NCBI RefSeq assembly: GCF_018408855.1
Contig: NZ_AP024326.1
Span: 558,001 to 622,000 of the forward strand
Origin: Caballeronia sp. NK8
Lineage (GTDB): Bacteria; Pseudomonadota; Gammaproteobacteria; Burkholderiales; Burkholderiaceae
Reading direction: 5' to 3'
Length of the DNA stretch: 64,000 nt
Below, in pieces: positions 3,736 to 27,467 of the stretch (its first letter is position 1; the number at the start of each line of letters is the position of its first letter). The position numbers were made by a program, and so were the translations under genes. The notes beneath the pieces are model-generated. The model was not told where the DNA came from, did no database searches, and worked only from the letters and a program-made list of their open reading frames with translations.

Positions 3736-3750
3736 CGATACTAACTATCG
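3736..3750 (+). promoter_or_regulatory. Palindromic CGATA-N5-TATCG site 1
   Basis: The site reads CGATACTAACTATCG, a perfect inverted repeat with a 5-base spacer. It sits about 215 bases upstream of the TraR/DksA-like gene and belongs to a set of seven similar sites in the first 28 kb. Its role as an operator is inferred from recurrence and symmetry. Confidence 0.55.
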
Positions 3751-3964
3751 CGAGTTTGCCGCGTAGCTTGGACATCGAACGGTCTAAGTCGGCGTTATGA
3801 TGATTGTGTACCTGCGAAGTAACCGTTGAGACAATCGAGTGCAGTCGACTTTCAACCGTTCTGTTTGCGTGCAGTTCTTTGCCGAAACCTATGCGCGAGA
3901 CGGTAACCTACAGTCAAAGCCTCGGCCCTGAATGCGCCAGCCCAACCTTCAGGAGGACCTTGTG

Positions 3965-4342
3965 ATGAGTAAAGACGACGGCCTCAGCACGGACTTCATT
4001 GCGAAGCAACGAACAAGGCTCGAGCAGTTGCAGAAGGAAATCCTTGGCAACGAGGAGAACACCGTTGCAACCGAACGACGATATCAGGAAGAACATGGGT
4101 TCGAAGCTGAGGAGCTTGAAGACGAGGCACAGCGTCGAGAGCAATATGTCTCCAATCAAGCCTTGCGCGATGCCAACGATCAACGAATCGACGATATCCA
4201 GCGAGCGTTGCAGAAGATTGACGAAGGCACGTATGGGTTTTCGGACGCGAGCGGAGCGCCGATTCCAAAGGCGCGTCTCGAGGTAATGCCTGAGGCTATC
4301 TTCACGGTTGCGGAACAGGCGAAGCGCGAGGCCGAGCGATAA
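3965..4342 (+). CDS. TraR/DksA-family protein lacking the zinc-finger cysteines
   Basis: The 125-residue protein has the DksA/TraR layout: an acidic coiled coil (residues 10-85, ending in RIDDIQRALQKIDEGTYG) and a C-terminal globular block (IPKARLEVMPEA). In DksA that block is a four-Cys zinc finger. Here the sequence is YGFSDASG...AIFTVA, so all four cysteine positions are Ser, Ser, Phe and Ala. Family members bind the secondary channel of RNA polymerase and tune stress promoters. Cys-less homologues are known, so the protein may still do this without zinc. The ATG at 3965 follows AGGAGG (3951-3956). An upstream in-frame ATG at 3932 is less likely. Confidence 0.8.
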   Translation: MSKDDGLSTDFIAKQRTRLEQLQKEILGNEENTVATERRYQEEHGFEAEELEDEAQRREQYVSNQALRDANDQRIDDIQRALQKIDEGTYGFSDASGAPIPKARLEVMPEAIFTVAEQAKREAER

Positions 4343-4413
4343 GCGATGGACTCAACGGCCCGCGCCAGAATCCGACATTGCGCTCGAATGTCGATGTCCC
4401 TCGGATCGTGAAC

Positions 4414-5847
4414 CTATTGTGAGAGATAAGCGACGATCTTACCCACCGTAACTAGCGCCTCTTCTATTCTCGAAAACCACGGACTGCTGCAGTTGATGCG
4501 GATAAAGTTTCGATATGTATTCTCGAAATTAGAAAACATGTGACCCGGTCCTACGGTGATTCCGCGCTCGAGCGCCTGTCGATAGACCTCTCCATCGCAT
4601 CCACCTTGGAAGGCATCTCCACCCACAAGACGTAGCCCCCGCGCGGTTCGGAAATCCGAGTCCCTGAGGGCAAAAAATCGGTGAATCAACGCCCTGATCA
4701 ATTTGGTCTGGTATGCGTAGTTCTTCCTTAGACGCCGAAGATGACGCTCATATCCCCCAGTTTCTAGAAATTCGGCGATCGCCATTTGCGGAATGGGCGG
4801 AGAAGTCAGGGTGTTTATAAATTTCAGATTCTCGATTTTGTCCCGATATACACCCGCGATAACCCATCCGATTCGGTACGCCGCCGTCAAACTCTTTGAA
4901 AAGGACGCGCATGTGACGAATAACCCTTTTCTGTCGAACTTCTTTAGCGTAGTCGGCGCAGCCTTACCGAAATATAACTCGTTATACACCGCATTTTCCA
5001 CGACGGGTATCTCATGCTCGCCGAGCAATGTCATCAAGTCCTCTTTTTTCTCGTCCGGCATTTCAAACCTGAGCAGATTCTGGAAATTCGGCATGAGCAT
5101 GCACGCTTTCACATGGTCCCGCTTGATCAGGCCAGACAGCGCATCTGTATCGATTCCGAGCATCGGATGGGTTGGAACCTCGATGGCCCGCATCCCCAAT
5201 CGTTCGATCGCGTGCAACATCGCGTAGAACGTCGGCGACTCAACGGCGACCGTGTCGCCACGACTCGCGACTGCTTGCAAAGCCAGATTGATCGCTTCGG
5301 TTGCACCGACCGTGACGATGATCTGATTGGGATCCACTACCAGCCCGCCGTCTAGGTGACGCTTCGCAATTTGCCGGACCAGGTCGTAATTCTCTGGCGG
5401 CAGAGCGTCCCCCACGCCCCACATTTTTCGTGAACGGCCGATCTTCGCAGCTATCCGATTGAGTTTATCGAAAGGTAACGCCGCGGCATCCGGATACGGC
5501 GAACCCAATGGCACTGCATGGTCCACTTGAATCCTGCGCAGCGTCGACAGCACCAGTCTGCTGACCTCCACAGGACTGGACACTGAAACTGGCGTAGACG
5601 GAAGAATTGGCAAAACAGGCCCGTCGTCAGTGCTCGCTGAACTATCGCACACGTAGAAACCGCACTGAGGCCGCGAGGAAATGAAGCCTTTACTCTCCCG
5701 GCGCAGATATGCGCGAATGACCGTGGATATAGACCGGCCATATTGCTTACTCAGCTCCCGAACGGATGGCAAGCGCTCACCCGGCTTATACACCCCGCGA
5801 CGGATAAGCCCCTCAACGTCGTCCGCAAGCTCTTCATACAGCACCAT
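4414..5847 (-). CDS. MocR/GntR-type transcriptional regulator with aminotransferase domain
   Basis: An N-terminal GntR winged helix (residues 1-70: GERLPSVRELSKQYGRS) is joined to a fold-type I PLP-dependent aminotransferase-like domain. The lysine of SFSKSL is the expected PLP-binding residue. MocR regulators use this domain to sense PLP or an amino-compound, and most are not enzymes. The start MVLYEELADDVEGLIRRG (5847) fits the family better than the longer reading from 5910, which adds 21 unrelated residues. It is divergent from the LysR gene at 6140 with a 292-base gap. No obvious target enzyme is adjacent, so its regulon is unknown. Confidence 0.88.
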   Translation of the reverse strand: MVLYEELADDVEGLIRRGVYKPGERLPSVRELSKQYGRSISTVIRAYLRRESKGFISSRPQCGFYVCDSSASTDDGPVLPILPSTPVSVSSPVEVSRLVLSTLRRIQVDHAVPLGSPYPDAAALPFDKLNRIAAKIGRSRKMWGVGDALPPENYDLVRQIAKRHLDGGLVVDPNQIIVTVGATEAINLALQAVASRGDTVAVESPTFYAMLHAIERLGMRAIEVPTHPMLGIDTDALSGLIKRDHVKACMLMPNFQNLLRFEMPDEKKEDLMTLLGEHEIPVVENAVYNELYFGKAAPTTLKKFDRKGLFVTCASFSKSLTAAYRIGWVIAGVYRDKIENLKFINTLTSPPIPQMAIAEFLETGGYERHLRRLRKNYAYQTKLIRALIHRFFALRDSDFRTARGLRLVGGDAFQGGCDGEVYRQALERGITVGPGHMFSNFENTYRNFIRINCSSPWFSRIEEALVTVGKIVAYLSQ

Positions 5848-6139
5848 GCAAACCTCAGACAAAAAGATCAGAAGTTCAATTCGCTTGGACTGATAGAGAA
5901 CAGTGCACATTTAATGCCGTTTCTTGCAACTGTACTCTACTAAATCTACCTGATCTGTAACGCATTTGCCGACAGCAATGCATCTATCGTGAAGGCTATT
6001 TAAATAGATGATAGGTACCGAACATGGACTCGCGACACTCCATTGTCCGTCTGCAAAGTAGCGCCCCTTCCGCACTTCACGGCAATCTAGTGGGTTCTCG
6101 TAGAGCTCCGCCTCAAAGGAGTACGGGGGGGCGCTGTAG
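5848..6139. other. Divergent intergenic region between MocR- and LysR-type genes
   Basis: This 292-base gap presumably carries both promoters. A G-run (GGGGGGG at about 6126-6132) sits just before the LysR start and probably serves as its ribosome-binding region. No clear operator palindrome was recognised. Confidence 0.4.
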
Positions 6140-7039
6140 ATGAACCTCATTGAGAGCATGCGTATTTACGTAAGAGTGGTCGAGCGCGCCAGCATCTCTG
6201 ATGCAGCGCGAGATCTTGAGATCGGTCAATCGACCGTGAGCGAGCGAATCGAGAAGCTCGAGAAGTTCCTCGGATGCCGTTTGCTACTGCGCAGCGCAAG
6301 AGCCTTCAGTTGCACGCCCGAGGGCCAGGCGTTCTATGAACGGAGCAAGACAATCCTTCAGGCTACCTCTGATGCGATAAGCGAGATTTCCGGAGATCAA
6401 CAGCTTGCGAATGGCATTACGCGCATCGCAGCGCCACACTGCTTCGGAGAGACGATACTGCCCTACCTGGTTGAATACTTCCGAAGCAATTTTCCGCCGA
6501 CGTCGTTGAGCTTGACCCTGAATGACCGGATTGTTGATCTGGTCACGGAGGGAGTAGACCTATCATTTCGCACCGGTCCCCTTGGAGAGGGCGCATTCGT
6601 CGCTTACCCGCTTGGAAAGGTGAGCCGATTTCTCGTCACGTCGCGGGCATACGCTGAAAAAAACAGGCTCCTCACGTCGCCAGGCGATCTGCCGTTGCAT
6701 ACCTTGATTGGATTCAACAACTCAGCGGATCAGATTGCGATGATCAGCGAATCAGGCGTTGTGGAGAACATACCTTTCCCAAGCGACATCAAGACAAGCC
6801 ACTGGCGCCCGGCATTTGAAATGGTGCGCATGGGCATGGGCATCGGAATGTTCGAGGAGTATGCCTGCACAGAAGCATTTGACCGCGGCGATCTGGTGAA
6901 AGTACTTCCTGACCTCAAGATCGTCCCGTTGGATTTGAACCTGCTGATCCAGGCCCAACGTCCAGTGCCGCAACGAGTGCGAACGATTGTCTCCATTCTC
7001 AGGAATGTTGTTCCTAATTTCCTTCCGCGAACCGCGTGA
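6140..7039 (+). CDS. LysR-family transcriptional regulator
   Basis: The 299-residue protein has the LysR winged helix at residues 1-60 (ISDAARDLEIGQSTVSERIEKLE) and a two-lobe substrate-binding effector domain after residue 90. The recognition helix is canonical apart from Glu-rich wing residues. Family members are tetrameric activators responding to small molecules. The MocR-type gene upstream is divergent. Downstream there is a gap of about 350 bases before the molybdoenzyme gene, so it may or may not control that operon. Confidence 0.9.
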   Translation: MNLIESMRIYVRVVERASISDAARDLEIGQSTVSERIEKLEKFLGCRLLLRSARAFSCTPEGQAFYERSKTILQATSDAISEISGDQQLANGITRIAAPHCFGETILPYLVEYFRSNFPPTSLSLTLNDRIVDLVTEGVDLSFRTGPLGEGAFVAYPLGKVSRFLVTSRAYAEKNRLLTSPGDLPLHTLIGFNNSADQIAMISESGVVENIPFPSDIKTSHWRPAFEMVRMGMGIGMFEEYACTEAFDRGDLVKVLPDLKIVPLDLNLLIQAQRPVPQRVRTIVSILRNVVPNFLPRTA

Positions 7040-7393
7040 CAGCGTGACAACAGCGTTCAAGATAGCGAGTGCGATGCAGTAGCATGCAAGGCAACGAACG
7101 CAATCATAGGTCTTAGGCAAGACCTGCCAACGCCACTTCTACACGGATTTCCCACTCGTTATATTCGGTAAAACATTACGGATTAGTCGTTGACGATACT
7201 TAGCATCGGCCAACAAACAGTACTATGCTTTCTGACAGCACCTACAATGATTCATCCCATATCACACTAAGTTCGGTTCGAATAAGTCCGTCATAAACGC
7301 GCACAGAAAACATCCACGCGTTCTCGAATGCGCGACGCTGGGTCACATTGTCAGCACGACCTAATTCTTATCCGTGTTCATTCGGAGGCCGGT
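7040..7393. other. Intergenic region upstream of the molybdoenzyme-bd oxidase run
   Basis: This 354-base, A+T-richer gap carries palindromic site 2 (7194-7208). No small gene with a convincing ribosome-binding site was seen. Confidence 0.45.
7194..7208 (+). promoter_or_regulatory. Palindromic CGATACTTA-type site 2
   Basis: The site reads CGATACTTAGCATCG, with four of five arm positions paired. It lies about 185 bases upstream of the molybdoenzyme start and shares the 9-mer CGATACTTA with sites 3, 4 and 5. An operator or activator site is inferred. Confidence 0.55.
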
Positions 7394-9673
7394 ATGGCAA
7401 AAAGAGAGGTTCCTGGTGTTCGTCGGTACGATTCGCCGGCCGGTGGCTGGGGAGCGCTGAAAGCTACAGCGCAAGCCGTAAAGACTCAGATGGAGACAAT
7501 CGAGGCACCTATCACGCTGATGCGTACCAATCAGCCTGACGGCTTCGATTGCCCCGGATGCGCATGGCCTGATAAGGAGCACCGGTCTACATTCCAGTTC
7601 TGCGAAAACGGAGCGAAAGCAGTCACTTGGGAGGCCACCACCAAACGCGTGGGCCCTGATTTCTTTGCCGCGAATACGGTTACCTCTCTACGTGGTCTGA
7701 CCGATTTCGAGCTCGAAGGAATGGGGAGGCTCACGCACCCTCTCGTGTACGATCGGGCGAGCGACAAATTCCTTCCGGTGGACTGGGACGTTGCGTTCAG
7801 CCGCATCGGAGAAATTCTTCGCAACCTGACTCCCGATGAGGCCGAGTTCTACACGTCGGGTCGAGCGTCGAATGAAGCAGCCTACCTGTTTCAATTGTTT
7901 GCGCGCGAGCACGGTACGAACAATTTCCCCGATTGTTCGAACATGTGCCATGAGCCCACAAGCGTCGGGCTCCCGAGATCCATCGGCATTGGTAAAGGCA
8001 CGGTCTCGCTCGACGATTTCGACGTAACAGAGCTCATCATTTCGATCGGGCACAATCCCGGTACGAACCATCCTCGCATGATGGGAACCCTCCACGAGGC
8101 CTCCCGGCGCAACGTGCCGATCATCGTCTTCAATCCTTTGCGGGAACGCGCGCTCGAACGCTTCGCCGATCCTCAAGACGCTCTTGAAATGGCCACCTTC
8201 AGTTCCACAAGAATCGCTTCGACCTATTATCAGGTCGACGCTGGCGGCGACGCAGCCGCAATCAAGGGGGTCATCAAGGCTTTGCTAGCGATGGACGCGG
8301 AAGAAGGAAACGTGCTCGATCACGATTTCATCGCCCAACACACCAACAATTTCGACGCATTCAAGGAGGATATTGAAGCGACGGAATGGGCTGACATTGA
8401 GAAAGCGAGCGGGCTCAACCGTCCGGGGTTGGAGCAGGTTGCGCTCGCCTATGCAAAGTCGAAGGCGACGATTGTCACCTATGGCATGGGAATTACTCAG
8501 CATAACCGCGGAACGGCGAACGTCAGGCTGATAGCTGACCTGCTGTTGCTGAAGGGAAACTTCGGCAAGCCCGGCGCTGGCATTTGCCCGCTCAGAGGGC
8601 ATTCCAATGTGCAAGGAAATCGAACCGTCGGGATTACGGAGAAACCGTCGACTGAGTTTCTCAGCAGCATAGAATCGGTTTTTGGCTTTTCCCCACCGCA
8701 AGAGCACGGACACGATGCCGTGCAGGCGATGCAGGCCATGATCGAGCGGAAGTCTAAAGCGCTAGTCTGCCTTGGCGGTAACTTCGCCGTCGCCCTTCCC
8801 GACTCGGAGCTCGCATTTCCGGCCATGAGAGACCTCGATCTCAGCGTTCACATCGGCACCAAGCTCAATCGAACCCATCTGTTGGTCGGGAAAGAGACCT
8901 ATGTGTTGCCATGCTTGGGCCGCACAGAGCTCGATATGCAGGCAGGCGGCCGTCAGTCGATTACCGTCGAAGATTCAATGTCGATGGTCCATGCGTCCTC
9001 GGGCAAGCTGATGCCGGCGTCCGAGTTCCTGCGTTCCGAACCCGCAATCGTTGCCGGCATGGCGAAAGCGACTATGCCTGCGAGCAAGGTCAATTGGGAC
9101 GAACTCATCGCGGACTACGACAAAATCCGAGATGTCATCGAACGAACCGTTCCCGGATTCGAAGCGTTCAATGCACGGATCCGCGTGCCCGGTGGATTCA
9201 GATTGCCACTCCCGCCTACCGAACGTGTTTGGCATACTCCCTCCGGCAAAGCCGAATTTTCAATCTACCAAGGCGTCAAGGAGGATGCAGACGTTCTCGG
9301 CGCGGAAGGCGTGCTGCGCCTGATTACCATCCGTAGCCACGATCAATACAACACAACGATCTACGCTATGGATGACCGGTATCGGGGCGTCTTCGGAAGA
9401 CGCGACATACTCTTCATGAACGAAGCAGATTTGGCGGCGCTTGGCCTCGAACATGGTGATGTCGTGGATATCGAGACAATCTGCACCGATCGGACGCTGA
9501 CCCTGAGGGGAATAACAGCGATTGAGTACAAGATCGCTCCGGGCTCAGTGGCCGCATACTACCCGGAGGCGAATGTCCTTGTTCCGCTAGATTACATTGA
9601 TAAAGAAAGCGGGACGCCATCCTATAAATCCGTTCCTGTTCGCGTTCGACGGTCAGAGGCAAACGCCCCTTGA
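7394..9673 (+). CDS. FdhF/YdeP-family molybdopterin oxidoreductase
   Basis: This is a 759-residue molybdopterin enzyme of the formate dehydrogenase H-like group, closest in layout to E. coli YdeP. The N-terminal block FDCPGCAWPD and FCENGAK is the group signature. The molybdopterin-binding core runs through NFPDCSNMCHEPT, GHNPGTNHPR, LLLKGNFGKPGAG and GHSNVQGNRTVG, and a molydopterin dinucleotide-binding C-terminal domain contains SHDQYNTTIY. YdeP has been linked to acid resistance, but the reaction is unknown. The ATG at 7394 follows CGGAGG at about 7383-7388; the longer start at 7328 lacks support. It opens a run with cydAB and two further plus-strand genes, so electrons could pass to the quinol pool feeding the bd oxidase (inference). 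Confidence 0.88.
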   Translation: MAKREVPGVRRYDSPAGGWGALKATAQAVKTQMETIEAPITLMRTNQPDGFDCPGCAWPDKEHRSTFQFCENGAKAVTWEATTKRVGPDFFAANTVTSLRGLTDFELEGMGRLTHPLVYDRASDKFLPVDWDVAFSRIGEILRNLTPDEAEFYTSGRASNEAAYLFQLFAREHGTNNFPDCSNMCHEPTSVGLPRSIGIGKGTVSLDDFDVTELIISIGHNPGTNHPRMMGTLHEASRRNVPIIVFNPLRERALERFADPQDALEMATFSSTRIASTYYQVDAGGDAAAIKGVIKALLAMDAEEGNVLDHDFIAQHTNNFDAFKEDIEATEWADIEKASGLNRPGLEQVALAYAKSKATIVTYGMGITQHNRGTANVRLIADLLLLKGNFGKPGAGICPLRGHSNVQGNRTVGITEKPSTEFLSSIESVFGFSPPQEHGHDAVQAMQAMIERKSKALVCLGGNFAVALPDSELAFPAMRDLDLSVHIGTKLNRTHLLVGKETYVLPCLGRTELDMQAGGRQSITVEDSMSMVHASSGKLMPASEFLRSEPAIVAGMAKATMPASKVNWDELIADYDKIRDVIERTVPGFEAFNARIRVPGGFRLPLPPTERVWHTPSGKAEFSIYQGVKEDADVLGAEGVLRLITIRSHDQYNTTIYAMDDRYRGVFGRRDILFMNEADLAALGLEHGDVVDIETICTDRTLTLRGITAIEYKIAPGSVAAYYPEANVLVPLDYIDKESGTPSYKSVPVRVRRSEANAP

Positions 9674-9826
9674 ACTTGTTGGCGAGGCCGTCGGCTTGTG
9701 TTACCCCAAGCCGGCGGTACGAGCGCGCCTTGCAGTGTATGCCTGTCGTTCTTGGACTTTGGGCAACCTCCTTCAGATGCGTGTATGTAAGGTTTGAACG
9801 CGAAAAACGCCTTGGAGCCGCACTAA

Positions 9827-11215
9827 ATGGACATTTTCGACGCCTTTCATCTTGCGAGATTGCAGTTCGCCTTCACCGTCTCCTTTCATATCGTCTTTCC
9901 TGCGATAAGCATTGGCATGGCAAGCTTTCTGGCTGTGCTTGAATGGCGATGGTTGGCGACAGGAAATGCAGCTTATAGAGAGATGTTCCATTTTTGGTCT
10001 CGGATCTTCGCTGTCGGCTTTGGCTTAGGCGTGGTATCTGGCGTGGTGATGGCGTATGAATTTGGAACCAACTGGAGCGGATTCTCCGATGTTGCGGGCA
10101 ACATCACGGGGCCGCTTCTGACCTACGAGGTGTTAACGGCGTTCTTCTTGGAGGCCGGCTTCCTCGGCGTTATGTTGTTCGGATGGGACCGAGTAGGTCC
10201 AAGAGGTCACTTCTTCGCCACGTTAATGGTTGCGGTCGGCACGCTGATCTCCACGTTCTGGATACTCGCTTCGAATAGCTTCATGCATACCCCTCAGGGT
10301 TTTGCAATGGAGAACGGACGCATCGTGCCAACAGATTGGCTGAAAGTCATCTTCAATCCTTCCTTTCCGTACCGGCTTACTCATATGACTATCGCGGCCT
10401 TCATCGTTGCCGCATTCATCGTCGCAGCGTGTGGCGCATGGCATCTTCGCAGGGGTCGCACTGATGAGCCGATCAAACGAAGTTTCTCAATGGCTCTTTG
10501 GATCTTGCTTTTTCTCGCGCCGATCCAGATCCTCGTCGGAGACGCCCATGGCTTAAACACTCGTGAGTATCAACCTGCGAAGATCGCTGCAATCGAAGGG
10601 TTGTGGGAAACCGAAAAAGGCGGTACTGCATTGAACCTGATCGGCTTCCCTGACATGGACGCCGAGGTCACTCGATACGCGATCTCGATCCCACACCTTG
10701 GAAGTCTTATCCTCACGCACAGCTGGACAGCGGAGATACGCGGTTTAAAGGAATTCAAGAAGGAGGATCGACCGTACTCGCCTATCATTTTTTGGACGTT
10801 TCGCTTGATGGCCGGACTGGGAATGTTGATGCTCCTCACTGCAGTTGTGGCGCTTATCCTTCGCCTACGAGGACGGTTGTATGACACTCGTTGGTTTCAT
10901 GGGTTTGTCGTTTGTATGGGGCCGTCCGGCATCGTTGCACTATTAGCGGGATGGATTACGACAGAAGTCGGAAGGCAACCGTGGACGGTTTATGGCGTGC
11001 TGCGAACCATTGATTCGATGTCCCCAATCGGAGCACAGCAGGCGGGTGTGTCACTGTTGATATTTGTGATGGTGTATTTCCTAGTGTTTGGCGTGGGGAT
11101 CTACTACATGCTAAAGATGATGGGTCGCGGCCCTAACCCCGTTGTGGATCAATGGGCGCACCTTCGACATCCCGTCCTTCGGAATCGGCCGCTCGACGCA
11201 CTGGAAGGAGAATAG
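9827..11215 (+). CDS. cydA: Cytochrome bd-type quinol oxidase subunit I (CydA/CioA)
   Basis: Subunit I of the bd-type terminal oxidase carries haems b558, b595 and d. The 462-residue length and short periplasmic Q-loop fit the cyanide-insensitive (CIO) subgroup. The b595 ligand His is in VSFHIVFP near the N-terminus, and the signature GRQPW occurs in TEVGRQPWTVYG. About nine hydrophobic helices are visible. It oxidises ubiquinol and reduces oxygen to water without proton pumping, helping respiration at low oxygen or under cyanide and peroxide stress. cydB starts 2 bases downstream. Confidence 0.95.
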   Translation: MDIFDAFHLARLQFAFTVSFHIVFPAISIGMASFLAVLEWRWLATGNAAYREMFHFWSRIFAVGFGLGVVSGVVMAYEFGTNWSGFSDVAGNITGPLLTYEVLTAFFLEAGFLGVMLFGWDRVGPRGHFFATLMVAVGTLISTFWILASNSFMHTPQGFAMENGRIVPTDWLKVIFNPSFPYRLTHMTIAAFIVAAFIVAACGAWHLRRGRTDEPIKRSFSMALWILLFLAPIQILVGDAHGLNTREYQPAKIAAIEGLWETEKGGTALNLIGFPDMDAEVTRYAISIPHLGSLILTHSWTAEIRGLKEFKKEDRPYSPIIFWTFRLMAGLGMLMLLTAVVALILRLRGRLYDTRWFHGFVVCMGPSGIVALLAGWITTEVGRQPWTVYGVLRTIDSMSPIGAQQAGVSLLIFVMVYFLVFGVGIYYMLKMMGRGPNPVVDQWAHLRHPVLRNRPLDALEGE

Positions 11216-11217
11216 CC

Positions 11218-12225
11218 ATGCAAATCGATCTTCCAATTATTTGGGCACTTATCATTGGGCTCGCCGTCTTCATCTACGTAATCCTTGACGGCTTCGATCT
11301 TGGCATCGGCCTTCTCTTTCCTTTCTTCGAAAGTAAAGGCGAACGAGAAGTTATGCTGAATACAGTGGCGCCGGTATGGGATGGAAACGAGACGTTCTTA
11401 GTCCTAGGCGGAGCGGGCCTGTACGGCGCATTCCCCTTGGCCTATTCAACTCTCCTTCCCGCAAACTATATGCCGCTGATCCTAATGGTTGTTGGTTTGA
11501 TTTTCAGAGGTGCTGCTTTTGAACTACGCTCAAAGGCACGACGCACTCAGCATGCCTGGGATCTGGCATTCATCGGTGGCTCCGCACTTGCCTCCTTTTG
11601 CCAGGGCATCGTACTTGGCTCTTTGCTCCAGGGGACAAAGATCTTGAATGGCCGGTTCGTGGGCGAACCCTTTGATTGGCTGTCGCCCTTTAGTTTGTTC
11701 TGCGGGTTCGGTTTGATGACTACCTACGCAACATTGGGGTGTGGATGGCTCATCATGAAAACCGAAAAAGAGATCCAGGCAAAGATGCGGGCTGTGATGA
11801 AACCCCTCGTGGCCGTGCTCCTCGGCACAATAGTTATTGTCAGCATCTGGACGGTGCTCGGCCTACCTCGGGTCGAAGCGCGCTGGTTTGGAAGCGGCAA
11901 CACCAAATATTTCGCGCCCGTACCGATTTTGGTCATTGCATGTGTCTGGGGTATATATTTTTCGCTCAAACGTGGTCACGAAGCGACGCCGTTTCTCCTG
12001 ACGCTAGCCATTTGTTTCCTCGGATTTAGCGGGTTGATCATCAGCATCTGGCCATTTATTCTCCCTCCGTCGCTAACCATTTGGGAAGCATCAAGCGTGA
12101 GGTCAAGTCAGCTTTTCGCGCTTGTCGGGACTGCAATCGTCCTTCCAATTATCCTTGTTTACAACGCAATGCAATATCGGGTTTTCCGGGGTAAAGTACG
12201 CGAGGGAGATGCAGGCTATCACTAA
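11218..12225 (+). CDS. cydB: Cytochrome bd-type quinol oxidase subunit II (CydB/CioB)
   Basis: The 335-residue membrane subunit starts MQIDLPIIWALIIGLAVFIY, followed by VILDGFDLGIG, the family signature. The GAPVWDGNET-like block (APVWDGNETFLVLGG) is present. It stabilises subunit I and helps bind haem. The ATG at 11218 is preceded by GGAAGGAG. An in-frame ATG at 11152 inside cydA would add a hydrophilic tail and is rejected. Tight spacing to cydA indicates co-transcription. No obvious cydX-type small subunit follows directly. Confidence 0.95.
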   Translation: MQIDLPIIWALIIGLAVFIYVILDGFDLGIGLLFPFFESKGEREVMLNTVAPVWDGNETFLVLGGAGLYGAFPLAYSTLLPANYMPLILMVVGLIFRGAAFELRSKARRTQHAWDLAFIGGSALASFCQGIVLGSLLQGTKILNGRFVGEPFDWLSPFSLFCGFGLMTTYATLGCGWLIMKTEKEIQAKMRAVMKPLVAVLLGTIVIVSIWTVLGLPRVEARWFGSGNTKYFAPVPILVIACVWGIYFSLKRGHEATPFLLTLAICFLGFSGLIISIWPFILPPSLTIWEASSVRSSQLFALVGTAIVLPIILVYNAMQYRVFRGKVREGDAGYH

Positions 12226-13232: not shown

Positions 13233-13251
13233 CTGTAGAGGGGATTTATAA

Positions 13252-15101: not shown

Positions 15102-15116
15102 CGATACTTATCATCG
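15102..15116 (+). promoter_or_regulatory. Palindromic CGATACTTA-type site 3
   Basis: The sequence CGATACTTATCATCG is flanked by C and G, extending the palindrome to CCGATA...ATCGG. It lies in the divergent gap between the hypothetical gene at 14936 (minus) and the small gene at 15253 (plus). Confidence 0.55.
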
Positions 15117-15252: not shown

Positions 15253-15405
15253 ATGTCCGCCCCTCAAAATGCTGATCGAGTACCTCCGCCCGAGCGCGAT
15301 CCACTCGACGAAGCGCTTGCGGAAACATTTCCTGCTAGCGATCCGATTGCCATAAGCAGCGAGCGCGAAGACCCGAAACCGGATTCGTCGAAACAACCGG
15401 ACTGA
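15253..15405 (+). CDS. Small acidic DPLDEA...TFPASDP protein
   Basis: A 50-residue protein reads MSAPQNADRV, then RDPLDEALAETFPASDPIAI and a charged Pro-rich tail. The core (D/E)PLDEALxETFPASDP is a recurrent motif of very small proteins in Burkholderiales and other proteobacteria, so this is very probably a real gene despite its size. It is predicted to be soluble and largely disordered with one short helix. Function is unknown. Palindromic site 3 lies 137 bases upstream, which would place it with the stress genes of this region. Confidence 0.75.
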   Translation: MSAPQNADRVPPPERDPLDEALAETFPASDPIAISSEREDPKPDSSKQPD

Positions 15406-16604: not shown

Positions 16605-19376
<2,772 letters not shown>

Positions 19377-19509
19377 GATCAATCGTCTCCGGTTAGATGG
19401 CGATTCGACGACTACGACGCGCAGCGCTGGCTACTTCGAACCGCCGCATGGTGGTGGGTCTTCTCCTCATGAATCTTGATCGGGCATGTTCCTCGACCCA
19501 TCGCGTGGA

Positions 19510-20313
19510 CTATCCGCCTGCTGCAATGGAAACGGATGCCTCGCTGGTCAACATCAAAAAAGTCAGCGTTTCGCGAAGATATAGTTGCACGGCGGTTTCA
19601 GCGTGGCTCGAGTAGCCAATCGACAAATCCTGTCCGACGTGCAGTTCATAATCGCCGCCACGGGTCGAGAGCACACATCCGCCCTGCAGCGCGGGAGCCC
19701 ACACTAGATCTCCGCTCACAATACGTTTGATGTGTTGGATTACAGGATAGCCTTGGTCACTTGCTTCGGCGAGCGCGGTATAAGCGTCGGCGCCAAGCAG
19801 TACAGAGTATGGGCCGTCGACGCCCGCGAGTCGAAGCTTTTCGAGTGCCTGACTGACCGCATCGGGATAGTCGACAACATCTCCCGGCAGCATTGTTGGC
19901 GCGTTGGAACTGCCTTCGCGAATGCCCACGATGCCCGCGGCTTTGTAGCCATCGAAGATCGCACTGTCCTCGGCAATGGCAAGTTCGCTGGCGGCAGTTT
20001 TAGCGGGCTGCCAGTCGCCGTCGTTTGAGCCGCGCTCTACGCTGTCGATGGACTCGCGCTGCAGCGTGAACGGCACAGTCAGTTGAACGAGCTGCCGCAC
20101 TTCGTAGAGCTTCGCGCCGATGCCCTGTTTCGGGGCCGCAATATTGGACTGATGTCCGGTACCGATGCCCGACAGCGCGGCGCCGCTGGGTTCTTTGACG
20201 TCGACGACGCGCCGCCCGGCAACGGACCGTTTAAACGTGCGAGCGACTTCCGCTTCGATCTGGGACCATGCGGCACTGGAGATCGGCGCAAGCTCTCGAT
20301 GCAGGTTATTCAT
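19510..20313 (-). CDS. Family 1 encapsulin nanocompartment shell protein
   Basis: The 267-residue protein has the HK97-like encapsulin pattern: MNNLHRELAPISSAAW, AWSQIEAEVARTFKRSVAGR, RRVVDVKEPSG, then FTLQRESIDSVERG and DYELHVGQDLSIGYSSH near the C-terminus. Family 1 encapsulins self-assemble into shells of about 24 nm that enclose a cargo enzyme. The cargo here is evidently the DyP peroxidase encoded directly upstream, whose reading frame overlaps this one by 8 bases (20306-20313). The start is the ATG at 20313, preceded by AAGGA. A longer reading from 20340 would extend into the peroxidase targeting tail and is rejected. Confidence 0.95.
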   Translation of the reverse strand: MNNLHRELAPISSAAWSQIEAEVARTFKRSVAGRRVVDVKEPSGAALSGIGTGHQSNIAAPKQGIGAKLYEVRQLVQLTVPFTLQRESIDSVERGSNDGDWQPAKTAASELAIAEDSAIFDGYKAAGIVGIREGSSNAPTMLPGDVVDYPDAVSQALEKLRLAGVDGPYSVLLGADAYTALAEASDQGYPVIQHIKRIVSGDLVWAPALQGGCVLSTRGGDYELHVGQDLSIGYSSHAETAVQLYLRETLTFLMLTSEASVSIAAGG

Positions 20314-21361
20314 GTTGTGATGTTCCTTTGAGTGAGCCAATGTTCAATGTTCCGCTGCGGCTTGCTGGGAGAAAAGTCGCGCTGGAAGGCACCGATGACG
20401 TCGAAGCTGCCTGGGGGCTTCTGTCGGGAAGCTCATCGAGCAGATCCTCGGACGGCACAAAGAACAGGCCGCCTGTCACTGCGCGGCTGTAGTCGAGCAG
20501 GCGGTCGTAGTTGCCAGGAGGCCTTCCGACGAACATGTTTTCCATCATTTGCTCGATCGGCTTCGGCGTGCGCGCATAGCCGATGAAATACGTGCCGAAT
20601 TCTTTTGAGCCTTGACGGCCGAATGCCATGTTGTGCCGCAGAATCTTCACTTCCTGGCCATCCTCGTCGATTGTTGTAAGCGAACTGTGCGAGCATGAGG
20701 GCTTCACCGCTGCATCCAGTTCGACATCCGACAGTTTCTCCCGGCCGATGATCTTCTCTTGCTGCTCGACCGTCAGACCATTCCATGCATCCAAGTTGTG
20801 AAAATACTTCTGCACGATCACGTAGCTGCCACCGGCGAACGCCTCATCTTCCTCGCCGATAATCGTAAAGGCGCTGGCGCTGCGGCCACGCGGATTTTCG
20901 GTACCGTCCACAAAGCCGATCATGTCGCGTAGATCGAAGTAACGAAAACCATGCACCTCGTCGACGACTGTGACCGCGTCACCGAGCTTGTTCAGCATCT
21001 GCGACGCCAATTCGAAGCACAGATCCATGTGATCCGCGCGGATATGCAGCAGAATATCCCCGGGAGTGGCAATCGCGCGACGCTCGCCCGAGCCGAACTC
21101 GATGAACGGATGCAGCTCTGCTGGTCGCGGCGCGCCGAAGAGAGAGTCCCATGCTTCCGAGCCGAACCCGCACACGCACGAAAGGTTCGCGGTCGGCGCG
21201 CGCGTGCTCACAGCTCGGACCAACGCAGAAATTTCGCCGCACCACGACCGTACAACCTCGGCCTTGCCTTCGCCGCGCGCCAGCGTGGCAACGATAAATA
21301 TTGCACTTCGTGAAATCGGATCGCAGACAGCTTGCGGTTCTGACGTGTTGTTGTTAGGCAT
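20306..21361 (-). CDS. Dye-decolorizing peroxidase (class B) with encapsulin-loading peptide
   Basis: The 351-residue haem peroxidase has the DyP signature GFVDGTENPRG with the catalytic Asp, FAGGSYVIVQKY, ILRHNMAFG, KEFGTYFIGYARTP and NMFVGRPPGNYDRLLDYS. These blocks fit class B (P-type) DyP enzymes, which use hydrogen peroxide to oxidise bulky substrates. After the catalytic domain comes a flexible Ser/Ala/Pro linker and then SGTLNIGSLKG, an almost canonical encapsulin targeting peptide (family pattern xLxIGSLKG). The enzyme is therefore expected inside the shell encoded next. Palindromic site 5 lies about 270 bases upstream of the start. Confidence 0.95.
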   Translation of the reverse strand: MPNNNTSEPQAVCDPISRSAIFIVATLARGEGKAEVVRSWCGEISALVRAVSTRAPTANLSCVCGFGSEAWDSLFGAPRPAELHPFIEFGSGERRAIATPGDILLHIRADHMDLCFELASQMLNKLGDAVTVVDEVHGFRYFDLRDMIGFVDGTENPRGRSASAFTIIGEEDEAFAGGSYVIVQKYFHNLDAWNGLTVEQQEKIIGREKLSDVELDAAVKPSCSHSSLTTIDEDGQEVKILRHNMAFGRQGSKEFGTYFIGYARTPKPIEQMMENMFVGRPPGNYDRLLDYSRAVTGGLFFVPSEDLLDELPDRSPQAASTSSVPSSATFLPASRSGTLNIGSLKGTSQHE

Positions 21362-21903
21362 CTCAAATTTATTCTAGTGCGCGAGGCGACTCGTTCAAGA
21401 GAGACCTCACAATGACGTTCGCTCAGGAGCAAACCGCGACAAAGTTGGAATAGCGCTGGGAATTCGTCCCCAAACAGAGCTCAACGTCTCCTCATGCAAC
21501 CAACGAAAGTCAATAGCCCGCTTTCTCAATCAATGCCGACACGCCCAGACCTGTTATACCGGCTCAAGCGCGCTGAACAGATTCTCTTCCTACCGCAGCC
21601 CTTGGGGACTGGGAAAGGCGCTTTTGATTCAAAGATTCTAAGTATCGGAGACCGCCAGGGTGGAATGTCAGACTCGAATAGCAGCGATTTTCAGACTTGA
21701 GATTACTGTCCTATCGCATTGGATGAGACTGCCTTCCACATAACGAGAATGAAACTTTCGCGTAAGCTCGACCGAGGCGCTGCGTGACTCAAAAATGACA
21801 CCGTCATCCGAGGACGACAATCGGGTTGCCATGCCAAAAGAAGATCGCCCGCCGAGGGGTGAAAATCAGGAGATGTTGGCAGACGGTCGTTCAGTTCGTA
21901 TCG
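21362..21903. other. 542-base gap between convergent stress genes' promoters and host-attachment-like gene end
   Basis: Upstream of the DyP gene this stretch holds palindromic site 5 (21633-21647). A short open frame at 21494-21700 has no recognisable family or good ribosome-binding site. I see nothing else. Confidence 0.4.
21633..21647 (-). promoter_or_regulatory. Palindromic CGATACTTA-type site 5 (degenerate)
   Basis: Read on the minus strand this is CGATACTTAGAATCT. The left arm and centre are identical to site 2 but the right arm is weak. It lies upstream of the DyP-encapsulin run in the same orientation. Confidence 0.4.
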
Positions 21904-22299
21904 TCAGCTTTGCTGCAAACGCTCTTGAATCTCCCTTACGCTCAGCGCCGAATAGTCCTTACTAACTTTCTCGAAGACAAGTTCATGAGTTTGCGCACTC
22001 ATACAGGACAAGATCATGCCAAGGAATTTGGACTCCGCAATCAGTCTGAGGCGGCCAAACCGTTGATGGAGACGCGCCTGTTCGAGGTATTCGGCCACCT
22101 GCTTTGCGAATTTATCCCTCTCCTTCTCCTTTTGTTCACTTGCGGAAAATTCGACCTCCTGCTTTTCGGTGAGTGTCGTGGCGCTATGCGCGACATTGAC
22201 GAAGTCGTCGACTTCCTCCAAGTCGACTGTCAGTCCCGGAGATTGGAACACTCGCGCCCGACCTGCATCCGCTACCACAACCCACGTCATGTCATTCAT
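21904..22299 (-). CDS. Host-attachment (AtsE/required-for-attachment) family protein
   Basis: The 131-residue protein begins MNDMTWVVVADAGRARVFQS. The block TWVVVADAGRARVF is the hallmark of the Host_attach family, named for an Agrobacterium attachment gene. The rest is charged and helical (SASEQKEKERDKFAKQVAEYL) and ends ELVFEKVSKDYSALSVREIQ. The molecular role is unclear, and homologues often sit in stress-response clusters. GGAGG lies upstream of the tandem ATGs at 22302 and 22299. It is divergent from hsp20, with palindromic site 4 in between. Confidence 0.82.
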   Translation of the reverse strand: MNDMTWVVVADAGRARVFQSPGLTVDLEEVDDFVNVAHSATTLTEKQEVEFSASEQKEKERDKFAKQVAEYLEQARLHQRFGRLRLIAESKFLGMILSCMSAQTHELVFEKVSKDYSALSVREIQERLQQS

Positions 22300-22485
22300 C
22301 ATGTTCCTCCAAAGCCTCCACGACGAACACGCTTGCAAAGCCGGCGTGCTGACTTGAGCACAATCTTCACGCCCGTGTTGTCTTGATGTCAAGCCATATA
22401 GAAGTCTACGGCGTTCGAGTGAATCGCTCATAAACCCTGCTCAGCTCTAGGTTTCCGCACACTTGTGCGACAAATCGGAAAGAGC

Positions 22486-22500
22486 CGATACTTATTATCG
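22486..22500 (+). promoter_or_regulatory. Palindromic CGATACTTA-type site 4
   Basis: CGATACTTATTATCG is a perfect CGATA-N5-TATCG repeat. It sits in the divergent gap between the host-attachment-like gene (minus, 22299) and hsp20 (plus, 22706), about 190-205 bases from each. Confidence 0.6.
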
Positions 22501-22705
22501 ACTTGTTTAGCTAGATCAATTGCCCCGCCCTCTGCATGGGTTCCGAGCGCCCATCCGACTTGCCGAGTTGGTTGATCTCAGGGTGGTCTCGTGGCAGATT
22601 CGTGCCGGCGCGTAGAGAGAGAGTGTTTCTTGACACTCATGCGCTGCGCGCCCTTTAATGATTCAAGGGATTTCCTGTCGCAGCGTCACTTGTCGGGGTT
22701 TGCTC

Positions 22706-23110
22706 ATGAGCATCACACATCACGCCAGAATGTGGGAGGCAGCGGTTGACGTACTGGAGCGCGCCGCTCAACTGCATCGTCAGTTCTTTCGGCTCGCCGG
22801 GCAACGAGCGGAGGCGCCCGTCTGGGAGCCTCCGATAGAGCTCTTCGAAGACCATGGCCGATTGTCCGTCGTCATCGCGTTACCGGGCATCAGGCCAGAT
22901 CTCGTGCAAGTGACCCTCGAAAACAGTACCTTGACCGTGACGGCGGAACGAAAACTTGCCAGCGCCTTCTCCAAGGGCATTGTGCATTGCTTCGAAATAC
23001 CATACGGTCGATTCGAGCGAGAAATCCGTCTTCCATCGGGACGCTATCGCATGGTTCGACGTGACTCCGAACATGGGTGTCTGCTGCTAGATATCGAGAT
23101 GCTGGACTGA
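22706..23110 (+). CDS. Hsp20/alpha-crystallin small heat-shock protein
   Basis: A 134-residue sHSP carries an alpha-crystallin domain from about residue 40: PPIELFEDHGRLSVVIALPG, RPDLVQVTLENSTLTVTAER and REIRLPSG. A C-terminal I-x-I anchoring motif is not obvious, as the tail is LLLDIEMLD. It binds unfolding proteins as an ATP-independent holdase. The ATG at 22706 (MSITHHARMWEAA) is preferred over 22658. lon starts 31 bases downstream, so client proteins could be held here and then passed to ClpK or Lon. Confidence 0.92.
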   Translation: MSITHHARMWEAAVDVLERAAQLHRQFFRLAGQRAEAPVWEPPIELFEDHGRLSVVIALPGIRPDLVQVTLENSTLTVTAERKLASAFSKGIVHCFEIPYGRFEREIRLPSGRYRMVRRDSEHGCLLLDIEMLD

Positions 23111-23141
23111 GACCCGATGCCAACAGCGCTTTCGAGGAGCG

Positions 23142-25538
23142 ATGATGAATACGGACAGCAGCAAGAGCCCAGAGAAGGCGACCGAGAGTGGCGAGACTTC
23201 TCATCCGTCGGCATTGCCCAAAGATAGCCTGATCCTGCTGCCGGTGCGTCACACAGTGCTCTTTCCTGGCATGGTCCTGCCGCTGATGGCCGAGACCGCG
23301 CAGCTTAGACAGGACGTACAAGCTGCCGTTAGGCGCCAATCGCCGCTGGGCATTGTTCTACAACGCGATCCGCAAGTGATGGAGCCACCTTTCGATGGAT
23401 TGCACACGATTGGGACCGTGGCCCATCTGCTGCGCTACCTGACGAACTCGCAAGATGGCAACCACCACCTTGTTTGCCAAGGAGTGAGTCGATTCAAGCT
23501 CATCGCTCCGCTCGATGGCTTGGATTTTCGCGCAGCCCATGTGGAATTCATTGCCGATGCATCGCAAACCGATGCCGCAATCGACGCACGGGTGCTCGTC
23601 CTGCGGCAGCGCGCAGGAGAAATGATTGCGCTGTTGCCGAATGCGGGCGCGGACCTAGTGAAGGCGCTCGACGCGATTGAGGCTCCGGGTCTCTTGGCGG
23701 ACACGGTGGCAGGCCTGCTCGATATTCCGCCCGAGCGCAAGCAGGACATCTTGGAGACGATCGACATCCGCAAGCGCCTCGATAACGTTCTGGACGCCAT
23801 TGCGGCGAGAATCGAGGTCCTTCGCCTGTCGCTCGAGATTGGCGAGCAGACGCGTGGGAGGCTCGACGAGAAACAGCGCGAAGTGATGCTGCGCGAGCAA
23901 CTCAAGACGATCCAGACTCAACTTGGCGATAACGTTGGAAGGCAGGAGGAGCTCAAGCAACTGGCGCAAGCCGTTACTGTCGCCCACATGCCGACGGATG
24001 TCGACAAGCATGCCCGCAAGGAGCTCGATCGGCTCGAACGCGCACCGGAGGGTTCCTCTGAATACGCTATTGGCATGAGCTATCTGGAGCTATTGACGGA
24101 ACTGCCATGGGACCTTCCGCCGGCGTCCCCCATCGACATCGCACATGCTCGAGTTGTGCTGGAAGAAGCCCACTTCGGACTTGAAAAGGTGAAGAGGCGG
24201 ATTCTAGAGTATCTGGGTGTAAGGAAACTCAATCCGGAAGGAAATGCCCCAATTCTCTGCTTTTTGGGACCGCCCGGCGTCGGAAAAACATCGTTGGGGC
24301 AGAGCATCGCCCGCGCGTTGCAGCGGCCGTTTATCCGCGTAAGCCTGGGCGGCGTGCATGACGAGTCGGAGATTCGCGGCCATCGGCGTACCTATATCGG
24401 CGCGATGCCCGGAAACATCATCCAGGCGGTCCGAAAAGCTGGAGCGCGCAACTGCGTGATGCTGCTAGATGAGCTGGACAAGCTGGGGCGCGGCGTACAC
24501 GGCGATCCGTCGGCTGCGATGCTCGAAGTACTGGATCCGGAGCAAAATCGCTCCTTCCGCGACAACTACCTGGGCGTTCCCTTCGACCTTTCCGCAGTTG
24601 TGTTCATCGCTACCGCCAATCAGGCGGAAGGCATTGCCGGTCCGTTGCGAGACCGCATGGAGATGCTAGATCTTCCGGGGTACACGGAAGCCGAGAAGTT
24701 TCAGATCGCGCGCCGCTTTCTCGTTCCTCGACAACTGAAGGCATGTGGACTCACCGAGGCTCAGTGCCAGCTTGGTGACGATACCATTCGCTCGATCGTT
24801 CGCGAATACACGCGCGAGGCCGGCGTTCGCAGCCTGGAACGGCAGATTGGCGCCGTCTTTAGGTACGTAGCCTTGCGCGTCGCGGAGGACGAGGCAACAC
24901 GCGAACGAATCGAACCCGATGACCTTGCGACGATCCTCGGGCACCGGCGCTTCGAAAGTGAAGTGGCCATGCGCATCAACATGCCGGGCGTCGTCACCGG
25001 GCTGGCATGGACGCCAGTGGGTGGTGACCTGCTCTTCATTGAAGCGAGCAGAACACCCGGAAACGGCAGGTTGCTACTCACAGGCCAATTGGGCGAGGTG
25101 ATGAAGGAAAGTGCTCAAGCAGCGCTGACGCTCGTCAAATCGCGCTCCGACATGCTTCAGATTGACAACTCCAGCTTCGAAAAGCATGACGTTCACATCC
25201 ACGTGCCAGCCGGCGCGGTGCCCAAGGATGGACCCAGCGCTGGAGTCGCCATGTTCATTGCAATCGCATCGCTGTTCATGAGGATGCCCGTGCGCAGCGA
25301 TTGCGCAGTAACGGGCGAAATCAGTCTTCGTGGCATTGTCCTGCCCGTGGGTGGCATCAAGGAGAAGGTGCTAGCCGCCTTGCGTGGAGGCATCCACACT
25401 GTACTACTTCCCTCGCGTAACATGATCGACCTCGAAGACATTCCCACCGACGCTCGCAATCAGATTCGATTCGTCCCGTTAAACACAGTCGATGATGCTC
25501 TACGTGAGATTGTCGACACTAATTCATTGGCCGCGTGA
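23142..25538 (+). CDS. lon: ATP-dependent protease Lon (LonA type)
   Basis: The 798-residue protease has the LonA order: N-terminal LAN domain (LILLPVRHTVLFPGMVLPLM), coiled coil, AAA+ module with Walker A GPPGVGKTS near residue 377, and a C-terminal Ser-Lys protease domain. The catalytic Ser is in KDGPSAGVA (about residue 698) and the Lys in GIKEKV (about 740). Length and motifs are complete. It degrades misfolded and selected regulatory proteins. As it lies in an hsp20-lon pair within the stress island, it is likely an extra Lon, with the housekeeping clpX-lon copy elsewhere (inference). Confidence 0.96.
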   Translation: MMNTDSSKSPEKATESGETSHPSALPKDSLILLPVRHTVLFPGMVLPLMAETAQLRQDVQAAVRRQSPLGIVLQRDPQVMEPPFDGLHTIGTVAHLLRYLTNSQDGNHHLVCQGVSRFKLIAPLDGLDFRAAHVEFIADASQTDAAIDARVLVLRQRAGEMIALLPNAGADLVKALDAIEAPGLLADTVAGLLDIPPERKQDILETIDIRKRLDNVLDAIAARIEVLRLSLEIGEQTRGRLDEKQREVMLREQLKTIQTQLGDNVGRQEELKQLAQAVTVAHMPTDVDKHARKELDRLERAPEGSSEYAIGMSYLELLTELPWDLPPASPIDIAHARVVLEEAHFGLEKVKRRILEYLGVRKLNPEGNAPILCFLGPPGVGKTSLGQSIARALQRPFIRVSLGGVHDESEIRGHRRTYIGAMPGNIIQAVRKAGARNCVMLLDELDKLGRGVHGDPSAAMLEVLDPEQNRSFRDNYLGVPFDLSAVVFIATANQAEGIAGPLRDRMEMLDLPGYTEAEKFQIARRFLVPRQLKACGLTEAQCQLGDDTIRSIVREYTREAGVRSLERQIGAVFRYVALRVAEDEATRERIEPDDLATILGHRRFESEVAMRINMPGVVTGLAWTPVGGDLLFIEASRTPGNGRLLLTGQLGEVMKESAQAALTLVKSRSDMLQIDNSSFEKHDVHIHVPAGAVPKDGPSAGVAMFIAIASLFMRMPVRSDCAVTGEISLRGIVLPVGGIKEKVLAALRGGIHTVLLPSRNMIDLEDIPTDARNQIRFVPLNTVDDALREIVDTNSLAA

Positions 25539-25544
25539 ATGAAC

Positions 25545-25577: not shown

Positions 25578-25656
25578 GACGAATACCTCCGCCCCCCTTC
25601 AGAAGGGAACCAAGTGCATACACTTCGATTTCCCTGACGCGTCTATTTTGAGCCTC

Positions 25657-25671
25657 CGATACTCAACATTA
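25657..25671 (+). promoter_or_regulatory. Palindromic CGATAC-type site 6 (half site)
   Basis: CGATACTCAACATTA keeps the left arm and T/A-rich centre but has a poor right arm. It is 73 bases upstream of the PRC-barrel gene. Confidence 0.35.
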
Positions 25672-25743
25672 GTAGATGACGTGTGTTCAAGAACAGCCGT
25701 TGTGCCTAGGATGAGGTTGCTTTAGACCGAGATTAAGAATCAA

Positions 25744-26566: not shown

Positions 26567-26746
26567 TTAGAGAATCGCGGACGGTAATGATTTTTTGAAG
26601 ACGCCGTACGCTTCCTGCTGATTTCGAGCCGCCGATTTCAAATCGTCCGGACTTTTTGCTGAGTCGTACGCCTTCCTCGCCAATGCATAGGCTTGGGCCA
26701 ATTTTATTTGTAATTCAACTATGTTTTCTACGGTTGTTTCGTTCAT
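26567..26746 (-). CDS. Small helical hypothetical protein
   Basis: A 59-residue protein starts MNETTVENIVELQIKLAQAY and continues LARKAYDSAKSPDDLKSAAR. It is predicted to be almost entirely alpha-helical and amphipathic. AGAGGT precedes the ATG at a normal distance. The longer reading from 26857 adds an unrelated basic segment. No family is recognised. Confidence 0.55.
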   Translation of the reverse strand: MNETTVENIVELQIKLAQAYALARKAYDSAKSPDDLKSAARNQQEAYGVFKKSLPSAIL

Positions 26747-26865
26747 TTTGTACCTCTGGGTTGTCGGGCCGACAAGATTCAGCCGCTGGCCCACGATCGT
26801 TTTGTTGCACCGGCGGTATATCCAGTCAACTGTGCAAAAGTCAAATTCGACGCGCAAAGTCTTTG

Positions 26866-27288
26866 CTAATCCACGCCGATTATCACGCTGGTAGCCTTGA
26901 AGATTGCGGTCGCCATGCGTCCGACCGTAAGACCTAATCGACCGACACTGTCATTGGTGACGAAAGCGACGACCCTCCCTCCATGGGCAGCAACTGCAAC
27001 TTCAGCATTAACCAGTCCCTTCTCAATGAAACCAATTCTTCCCGTAAAGCAGTTACGCGCAGATACTTTGCTATTGTCGAAACCGACCAGAAGGATGACT
27101 GAAGTTGCTCTAACCAGAGCGAAGGCCTCCGAATTCAACGAAAGCCCGAGCGAAACAGCAGTGCCGCTTGTCAGCAGCGCATGAACGTCCATTCCATCTG
27201 CGGTCCGCAGCGTAACGTTGTCGCCTACGGGAGCGCTGTCAAGCCGAACGATGCGACCGGTGAAATGGTTGCGTGCGCTGGTTTTCAT
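26866..27288 (-). CDS. Molybdate-binding Mop/TOBE tandem protein (ModG-like)
   Basis: The 140-residue protein is two tandem Mop (TOBE) domains: MKTSARNHFTGRIVRLDSAP opens the first and VSARNCFTGRIGFIEKGLVN the second. Each repeat has the S-A-R-N-x-F-x-G-x-I signature and ends with a hydrophobic SVIL/SVII strand. ModG-like and molbindin proteins bind molybdate or tungstate in the cytoplasm as small oligomers, acting as a store or buffer. The nearest molybdoenzyme is the YdeP-like protein at 7.4-9.7 kb, so it may support that enzyme. Upstream (27453-27467) lies palindromic site 7. Confidence 0.88.
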   Translation of the reverse strand: MKTSARNHFTGRIVRLDSAPVGDNVTLRTADGMDVHALLTSGTAVSLGLSLNSEAFALVRATSVILLVGFDNSKVSARNCFTGRIGFIEKGLVNAEVAVAAHGGRVVAFVTNDSVGRLGLTVGRMATAIFKATSVIIGVD

Positions 27289-27452
27289 GGAAACCTCTTG
27301 ACGAAGGAAACGAAGGAAGGCGCTGCACGTATAGGAAAGCAGATCATGGTCAACTTAAGGTACAGCGAAATCTAAGGAAAATCTTCCTTTTTTAGGAGTA
27401 TTGGTCTGAACCCAAGACGCAGCCGCACGTCGCGGAGAAGGACCTAAAAAGC

Positions 27453-27467
27453 CGATAGTTTCTATCG
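27453..27467 (+). promoter_or_regulatory. Palindromic CGATA-N5-TATCG site 7
   Basis: CGATAGTTTCTATCG is a perfect arm repeat, extended by C and G (CCGATA...TATCGG). It lies in the 337-base divergent gap (27289-27625) between the ModG-like gene and the plus-strand gene at 27626, about 160 bases from each start. Apart from this site the gap is A+T rich with no other recognised feature. Confidence 0.5.

Follow-up and report, generated by a model that had tools for sequence, protein, structure and literature searches.

The window analysed here is a stretch of 64,000 nt from Caballeronia sp. NK8 (contig NZ_AP024326.1, positions 558,001 to 622,000), and its first 28 kb carry several copies of a palindrome, CCGATA-N5-TATCGG in its full form, which a LysR-type regulator encoded among them (6140–7039, plus strand) is likely to use as its operator, probably to activate the promoters of stress genes. 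Computation revealed the motif, its conservation in related islands and genera, its linkage to one clade of LysR proteins and, for roughly one promoter group in two, a fixed spacing to a −10-like box; we infer that the LysR protein binds these sites and activates, and that the signal is redox or low oxygen. The initial annotation of the window had read seven such sites as a possible undescribed stress regulon and raised the idea of an upstream activator, and these are the readings best supported by the conservation, non-coding bias and spacing of the sites. If they are right, an accessory island can take the circuit that controls it along from genus to genus. Stress and low-oxygen genes that have been annotated one by one, among them those for an encapsulated peroxidase and for chaperones and proteases, acquire a defined operator and a candidate regulator, together with a prediction of how their promoters are laid out.

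Palindromic sites and their conservation

All seven sequences were recovered at the coordinates and on the strands originally given, and three are perfect CGATA-N5-TATCG dyads, as had been claimed: CGATACTAACTATCG (3736–3750, plus strand) at the promoter of a TraR/DksA-like gene, CGATACTTATTATCG (22486–22500, plus strand) between a baeRF/host-attachment gene on the minus strand and hsp20-lon on the plus strand, and CGATAGTTTCTATCG (27453–27467, minus strand), which has the complete 17-bp CCGATA-N5-TATCGG. A correction concerns the last of these, which probably serves the TOBE/ModG-like gene at 26866–27288 on the minus strand. The other four sites are CGATACTTAGCATCG (7194–7208, plus strand) at the molybdopterin oxidoreductase-cydAB promoter, CGATACTTATCATCG (15102–15116, plus strand) 5′ of the small DPLDEA open reading frame (ORF, 15253–15405), the half-degenerate CGATACTTAGAATCT (21633–21647, minus strand) at the DyP-encapsulin promoter, and the weak CGATACTCAACATTA (25657–25671, plus strand) at a PRC-barrel gene.

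A weight matrix was built from 26 perfect sites of fetched Paraburkholderia and Burkholderia regions (22 distinct 15-mers), with no Caballeronia sites among them; the bases flanking these sites, which lie outside the search pattern, are mostly C and G. Applied to all window positions, this outside-trained matrix placed the seven sites at ranks 1 (27453), 2 (22486), 3 (3736), 4 (15102), 5 (7194), 7 (21633) and 8 (25657), rank 6 being a coding site at 50591, and five positions scored at least 14 where 0.225 were expected (maximum 1 in 40 simulations). Pattern searches gave 27 matches to CGATACTTANNATCG at up to three mismatches against 12.7 expected (maximum of 100 shuffles, 26), and 11 matches to the dyad at up to one mismatch against 1.67 expected (shuffle maximum 6). 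The description of the sites as non-coding stood for all seven, which lie outside the 25 genes listed for bases 1–28009; with non-coding DNA making up 24% of bases 1–27500, the chance of such an outcome is about 4.5e-5, and the sites are not evenly spread over coding and non-coding DNA. The stated absence of sites from 28 to 64 kb held in part: weak matches do exist there, for instance at 50591 and 57066, yet they are coding. A further weak and doubtful site, CGATAGCATAGATCG (3565–3579, plus strand, matrix score 9.6), is non-coding and lies 171 bp from the 3736 dyad.

Across the 9.2-Mb genome, for which the distribution rests on pattern searches, perfect dyads number nine, and this 24 kb holds three; each of the other six falls in an ORF that was called mechanically, and two of those ORFs (L004, L009) are short and doubtful. 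Exact CGATACTTANNATCG has three genomic copies, all in this region, and the 17-bp motif at up to one mismatch occurs at 21 places, four of them in the island, against nine for the reversed control. Fourteen of the 17 places outside the island were viewed, ten in called ORFs and four not (L262, L264, L265, L266). Among 200 genomes of the family the exact consensus was matched in 11, the window's own genome counted, and most of the 12 places viewed in other genomes were within called ORFs; one in C. ptereochthonis (L039) precedes a DPLDEA-like ORF, and another (L046) lies where an NDH-2-like ORF starts. In Paraburkholderia, 17-bp dyads were also seen near the 5′ end of a gene recognised by eye as type II NADH dehydrogenase-like (L278, position 5616, G177; L281, position 5538, G246), which is a candidate further target outside the island, with the dyad perhaps upstream of the true start.

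At orthologous promoters of related islands the 15-mer is kept in place while the flanks have diverged. Neither of the two outcomes named in the initial annotation as contradicting its reading, equal density inside genes and lack of conservation at such promoters, was thus observed. The dyad between baeRF and hsp20 is present in the window and at all three other close baeRF orthologs, in one case with a mismatch, and the alignment of the baeRF region resembles a footprint, the palindrome being mostly retained and the flanks changed. The 26 loci with distant baeRF homologs, searched over their whole length, contain no perfect dyad, and a dyad with one mismatch turns up in two of them: L103, and L108, where it sits at the matched gene's 5′ edge. 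A Caballeronia island in genome G203 shares gene order over much of its length; its promoters for TraR, the oxidoreductase, DyP and baeRF each have a site, and one more lies close to the DPLDEA position. The counterpart of the 3736 dyad shows a single difference there, and that of the 7194 dyad is identical. Close hsp20 orthologs are found in three of 58 Caballeronia genomes, own genome included; G203 has none and retains the baeRF-side dyad (L118, position 10554), which suggests that baeRF, too, is served by this dyad. At modG and DUF1269, dyads that are perfect or have a single mismatch occur in both C. ptereochthonis (G100) and C. catudaia (G139), and the latter species has such a dyad at TraR too; in C. 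catudaia an ORF that looks like a transposase by eye (L282, 4158–5198) separates the oxidoreductase gene from its dyad.

Beyond Caballeronia, dyads precede oxidoreductase-cydAB in four fetched Paraburkholderia (g20) loci, clpK in five and dyp-encapsulin in two; they precede the oxidoreductase gene (two loci) and clpK (one locus) in genus g10, and the oxidoreductase gene in Burkholderia guangdongensis. At four of the Paraburkholderia clpK loci the dyads are paired, 39–45 bp apart (L121, 6481/6526; L167, 9696/9737; L168, 6638/6678; L163, 15487/15526), perhaps reflecting two dimers of one tetramer.

Promoter geometry

The dyad centre lies 80–279 bp from the start codon across the sites, so that the constant distance proposed at first is not seen relative to start codons; measured to the −10 box, it applies to roughly half of the promoter groups. 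Among 35 dyads scanned downstream, 19 have a −10-like hexamer 41–45 bp from the centre, the other 5-bp bins holding 0 to 4, and ten of 19 promoter groups have such a box at +42 or +43 (0.021 expected per group, a base rate that gives p of about 1e-12), the nine others lacking that spacing and all the boxes being predicted. Boxes at +42 or +43 occur at the oxidoreductase promoters of four genera, the clpK promoters of two genera and the PRC-barrel gene, where TAGGAT at 25707 begins 43 bp from the centre of the 25657 site. TACAAT (7243–7248, plus strand) is 42 bp from the centre of the 7194 dyad and is retained in G203. At the TraR/DksA-like promoter TATGAT starts 53 bp from the centre of the 3736 dyad, a spacing shared by the window and C. 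catudaia, and at DUF1269 (two species) the box is at +63, so that these two promoters add one and two helical turns, respectively. Among Burkholderia lysR promoters, all 13 that were examined have TACCAT or TACTAT, of modest score, at +41 to +45 toward lysR, six of them with a better-scoring hexamer elsewhere, and a GTTC-type −35, recognised by eye, stands between dyad and −10 box in the Paraburkholderia, Burkholderia and g10 promoters of clpK and of the molybdopterin oxidoreductase gene, for which fdhF is used here as a working label.

LysR-type operators typically include a partially symmetric dyad of about 15 bp that precedes the target promoter, at around −65 to −55. In the island, a LysR dimer (half of the usual LysR tetramer) would occupy one dyad on one face of the DNA, some 43 bp before the −10 box, which would put the dyad centre at about −55 relative to the predicted transcription start (about −65 for traR, about −75 for DUF1269). 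From this position, which is that of an activator, the LysR protein would most likely activate promoters with a weak −35: those of chaperone and protease genes (hsp20-lon, clpK), of the peroxidase nanocompartment (DyP-encapsulin), of alternative respiration (molybdopterin oxidoreductase-cydAB) and of small stress genes.

Linkage to the island LysR and alternative binders

By Pfam the proposed regulator is an ordinary LysR-type protein (PF00126 and PF03466, 57.4 and 96.5 bits, both above the cut-offs), with LysR proteins such as 3mz1, 3szp and 3hhg, the last presumably CrgA, as nearest solved relatives. Proteins of its clade were sought in 299 genomes of the family (E≤1e-60, seven candidates scored per genome) and found in 47, including four of 41 sampled Caballeronia genomes (the window's own, G000, with G100, G139 and G203), and the same four have close baeRF orthologs and island dyads; named LysR relatives also exist in Caballeronia beyond this sample. 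Of 58 LysR matches, 47 were viewed in wide regions, a set that leaves out those in G307, G130, G244, G122 (twice), G113 and G154, and further G273, G155, G189 and G278 on contig C1.

The perfect 17-bp site is present in 29 of the 47 genomes with a clade LysR against 38 of the 252 without (Fisher p=1.4e-10, from counts made by hand and ignoring relatedness and genome size), and within Caballeronia in three of four genomes with the LysR against seven of 37 without. In Burkholderia, where the LysR homologs are 44–48% identical, a dyad with up to one mismatch lies about 90–225 bp 5′ of the regulator's own gene at 19 of 21 loci, and the stretches fetched around these loci contain neither a MocR nor an fdhF homolog; counting B. 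guangdongensis, whose LysR is inside an fdhF cluster and has no dyad before its own gene, the figure is 19 of 22 (44–56% identical). The top palindromes found de novo upstream of 26 non-Caballeronia lysR genes were CCGAT-N7-ATCGG (13 loci) and CGATA-N5-TATCG (nine loci). Regions of the clade LysR genes contained 12 perfect and 19 one-mismatch dyads in 101 kb, against none and six in 95 kb around a control of 30 of the 150 PF00126 places in the window's genome, island LysR excluded. In a tree (drawn with no support values) the clade LysRs, with and without nearby dyads, were separate from 12 paralogs.

Most LysRs linked to a dyad have GQxxVSERI in the helix-turn-helix, and second-copy LysRs without nearby dyads have T or A at the V position, as do some LysRs with dyads in their region (L171, L134, L135). 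One second copy lies directly left of the window (L177, G000:C5:545001–558000), paired with a second MocR and accompanied by a bestrophin-like gene, and the fetched 13 kb contain no dyad.

A number of observations weigh against assigning the dyad to the LysR protein as an activator. Classical LysR operators have a T-N11-A core, a signature that the island operator lacks, the positions six either side of the centre being G and C as fixed by the search pattern. A dyad is missing from the promoter of the window's own lysR, from those of 13 of 26 non-Caballeronia loci (in Paraburkholderia, g10 and B. guangdongensis) and upstream at LysR loci L226 and L227; nearby dyads are likewise absent at the second-copy locus L177, and at L172 save one distant one-mismatch match. 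The perfect 17-bp site is absent from 18 of the 47 LysR genomes, the island carrier G203 among them, and just seven of 12 fdhF clusters with LysR have a site within 600 bp. Clade members may also have been missed because only seven candidates were scored per genome. As to geometry, the Burkholderia −10 box TACCAT scores barely over the threshold, and the hsp20, modG, dpldea and dyp promoters of the window have no −10 box at +43, +53 or +63 and may therefore use other starts or a different mode. The p-values are optimistic because promoter groups and genomes share descent.

Several other explanations were compared with activation by the island LysR. LysR proteins often autorepress, and the own-promoter sites of the Burkholderia lysR genes fit autoregulation, so that the protein might bind the dyad mainly as a repressor or switch; we regard this as unlikely, since a dyad near −55, upstream of a weak −35 and displaced in one-turn steps (+43, +53, +63), suits activation better than a steric block. 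A further possibility is that a response regulator, an FNR/CRP-type protein or another global factor encoded elsewhere binds the dyad, with the LysR gene as one target; the same Burkholderia sites might then belong to that other protein, and the target genes resemble a hypoxia or redox response. Such a regulator is distinctly unlikely, given that the perfect 17-bp sites go with the clade LysR and that the motif differs from the FNR box (TTGAT-N4-ATCAA). The CRP box (TGTGA-N6-TCACA), like that of FNR, was compared by eye and differs from the motif, and the CIRCE/HrcA, OxyR, Fur, ModE and GacA boxes do not match it.

A MocR-type regulator with GntR and aminotransferase domains (4414–5910, minus strand; PF00392 and PF00155) adjoins the LysR gene in the window, in G203 and in several Paraburkholderia clusters, and palindromes suit GntR domains, which would make the LysR a bystander. 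This is very unlikely: MocR homologs occur in 156 of the 299 genomes, a strong site lies within 600 bp upstream at three of 30 loci examined (L306, L308, L317), each time beside fdhF with LysR in the cluster, and the Burkholderia lysR promoters have the dyad with no MocR nearby. The fdhF cluster itself is disfavoured as the entity tracked by the site, because fdhF loci without LysR in the cluster lack it: a site scoring at least 12 within 600 bp was found at one of 18 such loci against the seven of 12 with LysR (30 of 85 listed matches, cluster membership being assigned by hand and for G136 via the cydA contig). Transposase-like pieces, seen by eye at the edge of the region, would fit a dispersed repeat, the alternative offered in the initial annotation, or the palindromes might be functionless and due to chance. 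We consider both most improbable in view of the footprint-like conservation, the non-coding bias, the performance of the outside-trained matrix and the conservation across genera, and a dispersed repeat is rejected because the flanks are unrelated between sites.

A wider reading, with a chance just short of even, is that of a self-contained stress regulon that moves horizontally: a LysR and scattered copies of its own operator, which is not of the T-N11-A type, would move as a unit in accessory islands of four genera (Caballeronia, Paraburkholderia, Burkholderia and g10) and would have captured unrelated modules (hsp20-lon, clpK, DyP-encapsulin, molybdoenzyme-cydAB, baeRF and TraR-like) under a single operator at fixed helical spacings of 43, 53 or 63 bp from the −10 box.

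Related systems and the genes of the island

LysR regulators with promoter-proximal dyads, of the BenM/CatM, CbbR and CrgA types, resemble the island system in their LysR domains, in a regulator gene beside its targets and in a dyad of 15–17 bp upstream of the −35; they differ in that no second activation site was identified in the island system and that its operator serves many stress genes, not one divergent catabolic operon. The tLST/LHR loci (transmissible locus of stress tolerance) likewise cluster hsp20, a Clp ATPase and proteases, whereas the island has DyP-encapsulin, cydAB, a molybdoenzyme, a TraR-like gene and a shared operator. The low-oxygen-activated (lxa) locus of Burkholderia cenocepacia is similar in belonging to the Burkholderiaceae and in holding low-oxygen and stress genes; the motif was not found in the accessible part of a paper related to this locus (PMC4603805). 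The literature searched by title and abstract, a coverage outside which most subscription papers fall, yielded no account of this motif or regulon, and the CGATA/TATCG strings in the accessible text of PMC9029033 and PMC5527654 belong to primers.

Bases 1–28000 look like an accessory stress island. Its putative targets are the molybdopterin oxidoreductase gene (7328–9673) with cydA and cydB (together 7328–12225, plus strand), which have a dyad upstream, the encapsulin (Linocin_M18) and DyP peroxidase genes (19510–21361, minus strand), hsp20 and lon (22658–25538, plus strand) and the gene for the TOBE-domain protein described above; the Host_attach/baeRF gene (21904–22431, minus strand) is a possible target. 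A ClpC/ClpK-like AAA+ ATPase gene (16605–19382, minus strand) has no dyad of its own that was seen in the window, and its Paraburkholderia and g10 counterparts are preceded by dyads. The island also encodes the DnaJ-family CbpA, CbpM (by eye), a bestrophin and DUF1269/DUF1345 proteins. The zinc-finger match of the TraR/DksA-like protein (3932–4342) reaches 24.2 bits, just below the Pfam cut-off of 24.9, and the pieces of broken insertion-sequence transposase recognised by eye (28147–29024) lie at the right edge of the dyad-bearing region.

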